64,000 nt of DNA from Mesotoga sp. BH458_6_3_2_1 (GTDB lineage Bacteria; Thermotogota; Thermotogae; Petrotogales; Kosmotogaceae). This document shows, piece by piece, positions 3,910 to 55,887 of the stretch. The DNA is taken from assembly GCF_003664995.1 (NCBI RefSeq), contig NZ_JFHL01000029.1:248001-312000 (forward strand), in the 5' to 3' direction. The notes beneath the pieces are model-generated. The model was not told the origin of the DNA. It searched no databases and saw nothing but the letters and a program-made list of their open reading frames with translations. How positions within the stretch are numbered: the first letter of the stretch is position 1; each line of letters begins with the position of its first letter. The position numbers were made by a program, and so were the translations under genes.

Positions 3910-4191
3910 ATGAAGCGATCAGTCTCACTTGACCTTGGAGAAAAGAAGTACACTTTTATTACCAGTGATCCACAAGAACTTGTGGATCAAGTCTTTTCTA
4001 AGATCACGGAAATGTACGATTCGTTAAAAAAGAACGAAGAAGAGATCGGCTATGAAAAAGTACTTGTGGGGATTTCGGTGAATCTTGCGCACGACCTTGT
4101 GAGAAGTCAGAATGAACTGCTAAGGCTTAAAGCAAAATACGAAGAGGTTCTTTCAGAATACTTCCAGGGACGTGACGGGGTTGAGAAGTAG
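3910..4191 (+). CDS. zapA: ZapA-like cell division protein
   Basis: 93 residues with the ZapA layout: an N-terminal globular part of short strands (SVSLDLGEKKYTFITSDPQELVDQVFSKI) and a C-terminal coiled coil (AHDLVRSQNELLRLKAKYEEVLSEYF). ZapA binds FtsZ and stabilises the division ring. The ILVALNLA-type segment appears as VLVGISVNLAHDL. It follows the small coiled-coil gene by 11 bp and overlaps murI. The family is short and variable, so the call rests on pattern and context. Confidence 0.75.
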   Translation: MKRSVSLDLGEKKYTFITSDPQELVDQVFSKITEMYDSLKKNEEEIGYEKVLVGISVNLAHDLVRSQNELLRLKAKYEEVLSEYFQGRDGVEK

Positions 4192-5002
4192 GTTAAGGAT
4201 AGGGATTTTCGATTCGGGGATAGGTGGCCTTACAGTTCTGAAAAGGTTATTGGAGGCTTTCCCTGAAGGAGTGAATTTTCACTATTTTGCTGATACTGCA
4301 AGGGTTCCGTACGGTTCAAAGCCAATTGAAACACTTCAAAGATACTTAAGAGAGATCTTCGATTTTTTTTCGCAGCTGAATGTCGATGCAATTCTTACTG
4401 CCTGTAACACCTCCGATTCCATACTCTCTCAAAGAGAAAAGTCAGAGCTCGGCGTTCCTTACTTCAGTATAATTGATCCCACAGTGAGAACTCTTGGAGA
4501 ATCAGCCCCGAAAGAATCGACAGTCGCAGTTATTGCAACTGAGAATACTGTAAAGAGATCGCTTTATTTGAGACGGCTCTTCCACTATGAGAATCTTACT
4601 ACCATTGTTCAGAGGGCCTGCCCACTTTTCGTCCCCTTAATAGAAGAGGGTATCTGGGAAGGCGAAATTGTTGATTCCATCGTAAAGTATTACTTGACTG
4701 ATCTGGCTAGAACCGAACCAGACTTTCTGATACTTGGATGCACTCACTATCCGCTAATTAGAAAATCGATCGAAGCATTTCTGCCTTCAAAAACAAGAGT
4801 TGTAGATCCTGCGGAGTATATTGTCAGTGATTTCACTGATTGGGCGGAAATCTCATCAACCGAACCATCTACGGTAGACTATTACGTTAGTGGGAATATT
4901 CGGTTTTTTCAGGAAATTCTGAAGAGGTATCTTCGAAAAGAAGAGAATGTGAGAGGTGTTGGTCTAACCTTTGCGGGGATAACTCTGAAGGAAAGCGTTT
5001 GA
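4181..5002 (+). CDS. murI: Glutamate racemase
   Basis: Makes D-glutamate for peptidoglycan. The motif GIFDSGIGGL at the N-terminus carries the catalytic-site Asp/Ser; the two catalytic cysteines are in TACNTSD and LGCTHYPL. About 273 residues, normal for the family. TTG 4181 is preferred because AGGGA at 4166-4170 is 10 nt away; a GTG at 4172 would leave only 1 nt. It overlaps zapA by 11 nt and ends 1 nt before yvcK, so it is part of one operon linking division and wall synthesis. Confidence 0.95.
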   Translation: MRSRLRIGIFDSGIGGLTVLKRLLEAFPEGVNFHYFADTARVPYGSKPIETLQRYLREIFDFFSQLNVDAILTACNTSDSILSQREKSELGVPYFSIIDPTVRTLGESAPKESTVAVIATENTVKRSLYLRRLFHYENLTTIVQRACPLFVPLIEEGIWEGEIVDSIVKYYLTDLARTEPDFLILGCTHYPLIRKSIEAFLPSKTRVVDPAEYIVSDFTDWAEISSTEPSTVDYYVSGNIRFFQEILKRYLRKEENVRGVGLTFAGITLKESV

Positions 5003-6889: not shown

Positions 6890-7351
6890 ATGAAATGTCC
6901 TTTTTGTGGTGGAGATTCTACAAGGGTTCTGGATTCTAGACCGACCGATGAATCCACTTCCATTCGGAGAAGAAGGGAGTGCGAGAAGTGTGGTGCAAGA
7001 TTCACTACCTATGAGAGGTATGAGAAACTCCCCTTCTTGGTGGTAAAAAAAGACGGCAGAAGGGAGAAATTTAGCAGGGAGAAACTTCTTAATGGATTGC
7101 TGAAAGCCTGTGAGAAGAGGCCAATATCTGTTGATACGGTCAATGGTATCGTTGAAACCGTAGAAAATGGGATTGTGAAGGCGGGGAAACACGAAGTGAT
7201 CTCAAGTGAGATCGGCGAGATGATAATGACTGAACTTAAGTCTCTGGACAGAGTTGCTTACGTTAGATTTGCATCTGTTTACAAAGATTTCAGGGACATA
7301 GACCATTTCATGGATATAATTGAGGAACTCAGGAACGACAGAGATCGTTGA
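6890..7351 (+). CDS. nrdR: NrdR transcriptional repressor of ribonucleotide reductase
   Basis: 153 residues. Zinc ribbon with CPFC at residues 3-6 and CEKC near 31-34, followed by RFTTYER and an ATP-cone domain starting [20 protein letters not shown]. NrdR senses dATP/ATP and represses nrd genes. The ATG follows the whiA stop directly. No NrdR box or nrd gene is visible in this window. Confidence 0.96.
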
Positions 7352-7368
7352 ATGGAGGGATCCAGGTC

Positions 7369-7842
7369 GTGAAGAAGAAAGTAATTTACCTTACACAGGA
7401 AGGCTTCGACAGAATGAAAGAGGAGCTCGAGAGTCTTAGAAAGAAACTCATGTATGAAATTGCTGAAAGGATCAAGGAAGCCAGAGAGCTTGGGGATCTA
7501 AGTGAAAATAGCGAATACGATGAAGCCAAGAACGAACAGGGAAGAATCGATAGCAGAATAAAGCAGCTGGAAGAGATACTAAATAACGCTGAAATAATCG
7601 AGGACGACGGTGACTTGAGTACAGTGAAATTGGGTTATGTCGTTGAACTCCAGAACGCTGAGACAGGTGAGAAATCTCAATTTAGAATCGTCAACGCTCA
7701 GGAGGCCAACATTTTTGAGGGAAAAATCAGTTCCGATTCTCCTATTGGACGCGGAGTTTTAACTCACAAAGTGGATGAATTGGTAAGGGTAAAAACCCCT
7801 GCAGGTTGGGCGAAGTACAAGATTCTTACTATCGGCAAGTGA
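7369..7842 (+). CDS. greA: Transcription elongation factor GreA
   Basis: Rescues backtracked RNA polymerase by stimulating transcript cleavage. The N-terminal coiled coil starts YLTQEGFDRMKEELESL, its acidic tip is DLSENSEYDEAK, and the C-terminal FKBP-like domain ends SPIGRGVLTHKVDELVRVKTPAG. GTG 7369 has GGAGGG at 7354-7359 with 8-nt spacing and gives 157 residues, the usual length. A longer frame from TTG 7348 would overlap the nrdR stop and lacks a ribosome site. Confidence 0.96.
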   Translation: MKKKVIYLTQEGFDRMKEELESLRKKLMYEIAERIKEARELGDLSENSEYDEAKNEQGRIDSRIKQLEEILNNAEIIEDDGDLSTVKLGYVVELQNAETGEKSQFRIVNAQEANIFEGKISSDSPIGRGVLTHKVDELVRVKTPAGWAKYKILTIGK

Positions 7843-7854
7843 TGGGGGTATTTT

Positions 7855-9357
7855 ATGAGTGAAGAAGCAAGGAAACAGAGAATTGAAGAGATAAATCAAA
7901 TGCGCAGCGAGGGAATTGAGCCGTACCCATACCGTTTTGAGAAAACTCACTGGGCCGGCCAGATTAAGACGGATTTTTCCGATTTAAAGGATTCCGAGAC
8001 TAGAGAAGATATTACCTTAAGAATTGCCGGAAGAGTGGTTGCGATGAGAAACCACGGGAAATCCACTTTCTTTGTTCTTAGGGATAATACGGACCGGATT
8101 CAGGCTTATATCAGGCTCGACGGTGTAGGGGTGGAGAATTTCGAGGTCTTCAAGAAATTTGTAAACATTGGCGATTTCCTGGGGGTCACTGGATTCCCTT
8201 TCAAGACGCATACAGGAGAGATATCGGTCTTCGTAAAGCATTTCGAGATACTCTCGAAGGCAATAAGAATGATGCCTGAAAAGTGGCATGGAGTGAAGGA
8301 TAAGGAGATAATCTACAGACAGAGATACGTTGAGATGCTTTCGAGCGACGAAGCTCTTGAGAGGTTTCGGATTCGCTCTGAACTGTTTCGATTGGTCAGA
8401 GAGTTTCTTCAGTCCAGGGGTTTTATAGAAGTAGATACGCCCATGCTTCATTATCTGACTGGAGGAGCATCGGCAAGGCCCTTCAAAACTCATATCAATG
8501 TCTTCGAGTCGGAAATGTATCTGAGGATTGCAGAAGAACTATTCCTTAAGAGATTCCTGGTGGGAGGCTTTGAAAGGATTTTCGAAATCGGAAAGAACTT
8601 CCGCAATGAAGGGGTCTCCTTCAAACACCACCCTGAGTTCACAATGATGGAGCTATACTGGGCGTACGCAGATTACAACGATATAATGGATATCACTGAA
8701 GAGATGATCAACTACGTAGTCAGCAAAATAACAGGTTCAGAAATTATTACTTATCAGGGAAAGAAGATCGATTTTTCGAGGCCTTGGCGCAGAGTAAAGA
8801 TGGCTAGCTTTATAGAAGAGAATCTTGGAGTCGATATCTTGGAAGATTCAAGTGATGAACTGATAGCCGTTCTGAAGAAGCATAATGCTGAACCTGATAT
8901 CAAGGAAAGAGGACACTTGATCGAGAAATTGTGGGATCTTGTGGAGCACAACCTTGTGAACCCCACTTTTGTTACCGAGCATCCAGTAATAATCTCTCCA
9001 TTGTCGAAAATTCATAGAGAAGATCCGAGAGTTACAGAGAGGTTCGAGCTGATAATAAGCTCTATGGAGATGGCAAATGCTTTCAGTGAGTTGAACGATC
9101 CGATTGAACAGTATGATCGTTTCCTTCATCAAGCGGGTTTGAGGGACATCGGAGATGAAGAGGCTCAGATGATGGATCAGGATTTCATCAGGGCTCTTGA
9201 ATATGGGATGCCCCCCACGGGAGGATTGGGAGTGGGTTGGGATAGAATAATCATGCTTGTGACAGATGCACCTTCTATAAGGGATATTATTCCCTTTCCG
9301 CTCGTAAGACCAATCTCTTTTGATGAAGAAGAGGCTTTGAGTAATAGCGAGGAATAG
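7855..9357 (+). CDS. lysS: Lysyl-tRNA synthetase, class II
   Basis: 500 residues. An N-terminal OB-fold anticodon-binding domain ([21 protein letters not shown]) precedes the class II core: motif 1 in the [15 protein letters not shown] helix-strand, motif 2 [14 protein letters not shown], and motif 3 [12 protein letters not shown]. It charges tRNA-Lys. Start ATG 7855 follows a G-rich ribosome site (ATGGGGG), 12 nt after greA, so greA and lysS are co-transcribed. Confidence 0.97.
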
Positions 9358-54587: not shown

Positions 54588-54690
54588 AGTCTTGTTGCCT
54601 CCTGCGAAGCAGCATCACTTCCCCAGATGCTACTCTGGGCATCACTTCTGGTCTTTCCAGATCCTACACCCCACAACCCCAGACCCGGCT
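54588..54690 (-). repeat. Hairpin/CATCACTTC array, copy 1 (two units) with G-rich flank
   Basis: Plus-strand order: CTGC-GAA-GCAG (54602-54612), CATCACTTC (54613-54621), CCCAGA-TGCTAC-TCTGGG (54622-54639), CATCACTTC (54640-54648), then a C-rich tract (CACCCCACAACCCCAGACCC). Preceded by TTGCCTC. Same overall order as copy 2 at 55732-55887. Orientation is given as minus because the spacer then reads GAAGTGATG after a G-rich leader. Confidence 0.85.
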
Positions 54691-54995: not shown

Positions 54996-55560
54996 AAATA
55001 CAAATTTGCGCAAGAAGCAGCTAATTGATGGTATATGACTCCCTGACTCATGTGTAATGAAGAGCTCTCAAGAGTGGATTTAGGAGCGAAGATAAGAGTC
55101 AACGAGAAAGATCATTTTTCGAGAGTTCGCTGCGCTCACGAGAAGGTGAGAAATAGAAAAGCCAGTCAGCCTCCGCCTGGCCAGTCTTTGCTTTGCAAAG
55201 GCTAGTTCCGAGTTCGTCGGGCGAAAGACTCGCCCACCGACTAGAGGATTGTCAGATAACGAGAACAAGAGAAAACTGTCATCTGTAGAGCCTGCTCTGA
55301 AAGTTTGCCCCAAAATTCTCCTGTTTTGGGTTCCTGTTCAGGGCCTCTGTACAGGATCTAGCTTCTAAGAAGCGTTGCACGCTGATGAAAACTGCGTAGC
55401 CAGTCAACGGTTCAGCGTTCTCCGAGACCTTCGTCAAGATCAAACCCGAGATCTTGAAACAAGTTTGGGATGACAGCGAATGTTTATTCCGAAAAGGATA
55501 GATTCCATCATTCCGACAAAGCTGGTCGGAATCTCGATACTATTGCTTCACGGCTCTCCT

Positions 55561-55731: not shown

Positions 55732-55887
55732 GGTTTTTGCCTCCTGGTGCTTAAGCGCCAGCATCACTTCCCCGGATGCTCTTCCGGGCATCACTTCCTC
55801 GCGCCAGCGAGCCTCACTTCCTGCCGGAGGCAGCATCACTTCTGATCTTGATGCCACCAACCCCCGACCTCCGACCCCGGCCTTTTT
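55732..55887 (-). repeat. Hairpin/CATCACTTC array, copy 2 (four units) with G-rich flank
   Basis: Plus-strand order: CTGGTGC-TTAA-GCGCCAG (55744-55761), spacer, CCCGGA-TGCTCT-TCCGGG (55771-55788), spacer, CTCGC-GCCA-GCGAG (55798-55811), spacer, CTGCC-GGA-GGCAG (55821-55833), spacer. Every spacer is exactly 9 nt: CATCACTTC three times and CCTCACTTC once. A C-rich tract (CAACCCCCGACCTCCGACC) follows, and TTGCCTC precedes, as in copy 1. Confidence 0.88.

Follow-up and report, generated by a model that had tools for sequence, protein, structure and literature searches.

A clade-specific family of mosaic hairpin repeats with an exact 9-nt linker in Mesotoga

The window analysed here is a 64,000-nt stretch of the Mesotoga sp. 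BH458_6_3_2_1 genome (contig NZ_JFHL01000029.1; G000, a genome assembly of 36 contigs totalling 3.23 Mb). A gap of 2.6 kb separates the end of a xylose isomerase-like gene (53684) from the start of a CxxCxxCC-domain gene (56315). Within this gap, the DNA between about 54050 and 55990 consists of modules that recur elsewhere in G000, and the DNA to either side is unique and has no repeat coverage. Two hairpin arrays lie inside this composite mosaic of multicopy intergenic modules, which was delimited by its coverage with repeats found elsewhere in the genome and has no assigned strand. The longer array can be read directly from the sequence as four hairpins with unrelated stems at 55744-55842 of the forward strand; the interval first pointed out, 55732-55887, comprises this array and its flanks. 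A degenerate leading linker, TTTTGCCTC (55735-55743; compare the linkers CATTGCGTC and CATTGCCTC), precedes hairpin 1 (55744-55761; CTGGTGC TTAA GCGCCAG, 7 bp including one G.T), which is followed by hairpin 2 (55771-55788; CCCGGA TGCTCT TCCGGG, 6 bp, the most frequent 18-nt class), hairpin 3 (55798-55811; CTCGC GCCA GCGAG, 5 bp) and hairpin 4 (55821-55833; CTGCC GGA GGCAG, 5 bp). Each is followed by a 9-nt linker: CATCACTTC at 55762-55770 and 55789-55797, the variant CCTCACTTC at 55812-55820, and CATCACTTC again at 55834-55842, where it closes the array. The 3' flank (55843-55885, forward strand) is a module beginning TGATCTTGATGCCACCAACC that is common to the array copies L039, L120, L136 and L137 and is present as a variant in L147.

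Folding of this strand with DNA parameters yielded these four hairpins, bare 9-nt linkers and nothing else as the minimum-energy structure (z -2.45). The sequence and the DNA fold thus bear out what a sequence-only reading had described at this locus, namely four hairpins with different stems and exact 9-nt spacers, CATCACTTC three times and CCTCACTTC once. The linker CATCACTTC occurs seven times in the window against 0.98 expected. The second, shorter array, CTGCGAAGCAG - CATCACTTC - CCCAGATGCTACTCTGGG - CATCACTTC, lies 1.1 kb upstream (54602-54648, forward strand), and its stem is a compensated variant of hairpin 2 in which G-C is replaced by A-T. The gap between the same two genes measures only 0.5-0.9 kb and is array-free in G001, G002, G004 and G005, implying that the window array was either gained in the G000 lineage or lost in all four others.

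Hairpin arrays of this kind are one module type of larger intergenic mosaic repeats, and other repetitive patterns were also seen. A second linker-hairpin system, with short hairpins (TTTGCGAAGCAAA, ACCGAAGGT and TGCGTTAGCA) joined by (GA)CTGGCC, is present at 55150-55240 of the window (minus strand), at 5510-5590 of L036 and in L109 of G001; it is visible as lesser peaks at 6 and 7 nt (linkers ACTGGC and AACTGGC) in the neighbour-distance scan presented below. A third pattern, AACCCG followed by about eight variable bases, forms runs upstream of hairpin arrays in L109 (9520-10720) and L146. L110 and L111 (G001, 1.71-1.745 Mb) and L142 (G000, contig C25) contain long arrays, probably of CRISPR type, whose period is about 66-67 bases, with CCCGGGATGATCTTCCCGG hairpin units nearby. 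Hairpin arrays also stand at several contig ends of the G000 assembly, and they may therefore confuse assembly and gene calling in Mesotoga.

Across G000, CATCACTTC has 231 exact occurrences, compared with 35 for the reversed control, and linked pairs of the form TCACTTC-N(11-20)-MTCACTTC number 138, compared with none for the reversed pattern. Some 275 units in distinct contexts were collected from G000 (about 40 stretches) and G001 (17 stretches), with 111 different hairpin sequences in G000 alone. The unit is a short self-complementary hairpin of 11, 13, 14, 18 or 19 nt plus a 9-nt linker, either the main form C[A/C]TCACTTC or a sister form C[A/C]TTGCGTC that has a hairpin set of its own (stems CACTGA, CGCCGA, CCGGC and CTGGC). 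Hairpin starts and ends are locked to the linker ends, and most hairpins have one of these five lengths, whereas the linker always has 9 nt. The spacing was also recovered by a sequence-blind scan in which only perfect hairpins with short loops were taken and the distances between neighbours counted: in stretches picked around arrays, a distance of 9 nt was by far the commonest, with 68 neighbours in G000 (8 nt, 2; 10 nt, 5), 78 in G001, 94 in G004, 14 in G002 and 9 in G005. Counts were low at 8 and 10 nt, and also in shuffled sequence. No 9-nt peak appeared in the array-free G008, the one genome whose stretches were not so picked. Sampling G001 and G008 at even spacing and equal size gave a smaller effect, with 7 such neighbours in the former and 2 in the latter (linked pairs, 10 and 0); apart from these two samples, the composition statistics rest on stretches picked around arrays.

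Pairing is retained as the stems change. Of the 558 stem cells in 93 distinct hairpins of 18 nt, 503 hold Watson-Crick pairs, compared with a mean of 367 (maximum 395) after the 3' arms were re-dealt, although the variation may descend largely from few founder units, in which case the compensated changes would represent fewer events than cells. Stems therefore stay paired between copies, and eight distinct perfect stems in the same frame of the 18-nt class, with up to five of the six pairs changed and a loop that keeps its TG start, uphold the earlier proposal of a free stem sequence combined with fixed pairing and a fixed spacer. Arrays run head to tail, as in the 92 linked pairs of G001, and identical hairpins are neighbours in only 5 of 373 pairs against 41 expected, a scarcity that could reflect selection on independent folding besides a mutational rule. 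Unit order is partly conserved: CCCGGA precedes CTGGGA 24 times to 0, and CCCGGA and CTCGC are found in both orders (16 and 12).

The further copies that the sequence-only reading had suggested looking for in the genome and its relatives were found in 7 of the 10 Mesotoga genomes, with 138 linked pairs in G000, 92 in G001, 86 in G004, 39 in G005, 29 in G002, 15 in G006 and 13 in G009; the remaining three had 0 (G003), 2 without a hairpin (G007) and 0 (G008). Each of the other 93 Thermotogota genomes (of 103) had 0-2 linked pairs, with no hairpins among the matches listed, as expected by chance. A scan for the 27-nt form in one genome per species, covering 84,980 species, returned only Mesotoga/Kosmotogaceae contigs and two misfiled contigs. 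One of these, a match in a Bacteroidales MAG (L144, JALHHH010000130.1), has 72% of its 16-mers in common with the Mesotoga loci compared, and the other, in an Acidobacteriota MAG (L147, JAKQCT010000020.1), matches G001 at 98.6% identity along 3.7 kb; both were set aside as Mesotoga contamination. Neither the viral contigs nor the plasmids searched contained a match to the arrays, and a phage or plasmid origin was rejected on this basis. Identity of the xylose isomerase gene is 91-100% in G000, G002 and G005, falls to 78% for G001 and G004, and is lowest, at 70-71%, for the array-free genomes G003, G007 and G008. Taken together with the array distribution, these identities fit a single gain within Mesotoga, with G006 and G009 not placed by this gene.

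Turnover of the arrays between strains is recent. In array-dense regions of G000 and G001, genes are up to 99% identical and the arrays are different. Orthologous arrays (L136/L113, L137/L120, L134/L118 and others) have one flank and part of the array in common and then continue into different modules, with junctions that coincide with a linker or hairpin foot or lie close to one. Comparison of L147 with G001 showed that, beyond the gene next to the 98.6% identical flank, two arrays on one strand in the former correspond to a different array on the opposite strand in the latter. On the sequences compared, this difference and those between orthologous arrays point most strongly to recent movement or recombination. 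A FAD-linked oxidase-like gene is open in L147 (3600-4990) and has a large internal deletion in G001 (L230, about 4040-4290). In G001, the regions at about 1.80-1.84 Mb and 1.895-1.93 Mb of contig C1 form a segmental duplication of tens of kilobases, hairpin arrays included. Arrays within a region of G001 tend to be co-oriented (9 runs against 16 expected, p = 0.005), which local duplication may explain. An orientation bias by replichore in that genome (p = 0.004 per array, with an assumed terminus) was discarded, as it fell to p = 0.27 once local same-strand clusters were collapsed.

In our view the window array is probably a single member of a mosaic palindromic repeat family, non-autonomous and specific to one Mesotoga clade, whose copies are reshuffled at the DNA level by recombination or template-switching. 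Units that follow one another head to tail, in an order only loosely conserved, form one module of the larger intergenic repeats, and arrays would spread as part of this composite module; we infer that the copying step is recombination between repeats. Units may be gained, lost and exchanged between copies through recombination or through replication template-switching at hairpins, with the common linkers and hairpin feet serving as putative joints for exchange. Pairing could be kept by a requirement that each unit fold into a hairpin, or by correction of imperfect palindromes from the opposite arm, and no host function would be needed. In the orthologous loci compared for the marks of a MITE, no common inverted ends were seen at the arrays and the junctions lay in mosaic repeat DNA, for which reason no clean empty site was resolved; nor was a candidate mobilising enzyme other than Y1 found. 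As neither terminal inverted repeats nor a target-site duplication nor a transposase was demonstrated, we do not claim that the mobility is self-directed. A purely passive repeat, however, would not obviously keep an exact 9-nt linker while hairpin length varies. It is conceivable but rather unlikely that the arrays represent a mobile or recombinogenic DNA class of their own, whose hairpins, each folding independently and set at a pitch of exactly 9 nt, would be recognised by a putative enzyme or structural protein, with stems free as long as neighbours differ. If so, the array would be a substrate for copying and module exchange coded by shape instead of sequence.

The three identities that had first been offered for the array, a REP-like mobile unit, a protein-binding array and a structured RNA, fared differently, and the first, which is partly supported, is the best of them. 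The family is indeed palindromic and intergenic, occurs in many dispersed copies and has been moved or rearranged recently, yet it does not belong to the Y1/RAYT type of REP. For REP/BIME elements mobilised by a Y1 transposase (HUH, RAYT-type) that reads single-stranded hairpins, one would cite the short palindromes clustered between genes and the two Y1_Tnp genes of G000, one of them in the array-dense contig C7. A Y1_Tnp search, however, gave no match in the array-bearing G001 (near-complete, with a 2.97-Mb main contig), G002, G006 and G009 (the last two incomplete assemblies), and Y1_Tnp is present in the array-free G007 and G008. Arrays thus persist in genomes without Y1_Tnp, so that a RAYT is not needed for their persistence, and RAYT mobility was rejected for the array-rich genomes. 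The hairpin feet, moreover, carry CACTTC or GCGTC and no GTAG tag. The RAYT-like gene of C7 (L036, 7339-8202; flanks 6900-8250) is itself flanked by a different palindrome, GGGGACTGAC...GTCTGTCCCC/GTCTGTACCC (GGGGACTGAC...GTCTGTxCCC), which constitutes a separate REP family in G000. A Y1 transposase is therefore largely refuted as the source of present activity, and we regard it as very unlikely. A putative nucleoid or recombination protein that recognises hairpins or cruciforms spaced at a constant 9 nt would account for spacing that is exact despite free stems and several linker sequences, for the avoidance of identical neighbours and for a DNA fold that equals the array; the array number nevertheless varies, and arrays are lacking in three Mesotoga species and in every other genus searched. 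We consider a protein-binding array unlikely.

An RNA element transcribed from the arrays as mRNA stabiliser, attenuator or small RNA, with hairpins and single-stranded 9-nt linkers would be consistent with the conserved pairing of the stems and with an RNA fold more stable than shuffled sequence (z -3.16), but the best structure predicted with RNA parameters pairs hairpins 2 and 4 with each other around hairpin 3, and the array is not formed. If selection acted on RNA, G.T mismatches in stems on one strand should exceed A.C mismatches; on the CATCACTTC strand the slight excess of 38 to 23 was not significant (p = 0.07), nor was that among distinct hairpins (32 to 22, p = 0.22). Placement appears blind to genes: unidirectional, divergent and convergent gaps hold 77, 37 and 18 arrays and 53, 29 and 17% of intergenic bases, and 43 arrays are co-oriented with genes against 34 in the opposite orientation (p = 0.36), with no preference for 3'-UTRs. 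The median distance to the next gene is 329 bases on the 3' side of the array and 935 on the 5' side, as the array sits at one end of the composite repeat. With no Rfam match for the array and neither promoter nor terminator predicted at it, the structured RNA is not supported, and a role of this kind seems quite unlikely. Gene-blind placement and the lack of a clear G-T signal, taken as evidence and not as proof, lead us to infer an element that acts at the DNA level without a general transcript role.

Several established classes were also rejected. The earlier view that the array resembles neither CRISPR, terminators nor coding sequence proved correct: the repeat has only 9 nt and the 'spacers' are hairpins drawn from a common vocabulary; there is no T-run and no terminator call at the array; and hairpin lengths of 11, 13, 14, 18 and 19 nt break the frame, and the ORFs that cross arrays are short. 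Integron attC-like cassettes were discounted, given that the arrays of contigs C7 and C8 lie among ordinary and accessory genes and not one per cassette.

The literature searched contained no description of arrays with a 9-nt linker, which may be mentioned in the M. prima genome paper, and the Mesotoga family is apparently an undescribed, fast-changing interspersed repeat. How short palindromic repeats multiply without a dedicated transposase is an open question, stated as such for CGTC REPs (PMC3733652). The Mesotoga family offers a well-defined case for this question, with its rule of free stem, fixed 9-nt linker and no identical neighbours, a sharp phylogenetic boundary within the genus that leaves array-free sister species as controls, and near-identical strains of differing array content that can be followed by resequencing.

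Among known systems, BIME/REP (GTAG) elements with RAYT are likewise high-copy, short intergenic palindromes that form mosaics with linkers, but BIME orientation alternates (PMC2817692, PMC3116915), whereas the Mesotoga arrays are head-to-tail with a linker fixed at 9 nt and several unrelated stems per array, and lack both the GTAG tag and the dependence on a Y1 transposase. M. prima contains CGTC-3 REPs (PMC3733652), and the RepRanger table gives 1,814 and 824 predicted elements for this species (PMC12306157). CGTC REPs, CGTC-3 included, share with the arrays the absence of an associated transposase and an unpaired tag at one palindrome foot (PMC3733652). In that superfamily the tag beside the stem is CGTC, or else TGTC or CCTC; of the Mesotoga linkers, the minor one, C[A/C]TTGCGTC (CATTGCGTC), ends in CGTC, and the main one ends in CTTC. 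CGTC REPs, however, have 8-9 bp stems that start with paired A-T, a CCA-like tail and mostly head-to-head dimers, CGTC-3 having 9-bp stems that start with A-T pairs (PMC3733652), whereas the Mesotoga units have 4-7 bp stems that start with C, are followed by C[A/C]T... with no CCA tail and run head to tail; the separation from CGTC-3 is based on its published description. Nor do the arrays show the preference for sites downstream of genes that is known for REPs (PMC3733652). The mosaic elements of Neisseria, built from dRS3 and RS (PMC3898611), are similarly intergenic mosaics of short palindromes and other modules, 0.2-2.7 kb long and thought to promote rearrangement; in dRS3 the stem ATTCCC...GGGAAT is kept and the loop (N8) varies, whereas in Mesotoga the stems vary and the linker is fixed. 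Streptococcal BOX elements (PMC3049150) are also modular hairpin repeats with variable module number, strain variation and no dedicated transposase gene inside, but they have boxA and boxC ends around tandem copies of the same boxB, whereas neighbouring Mesotoga modules are almost never identical. The closest kin of the family would thus be BIMEs, Neisseria NIMEs and pneumococcal BOX elements, from all of which the Mesotoga arrays are set apart by the exact 9-nt linker and the head-to-tail, non-repeating order of their hairpins.
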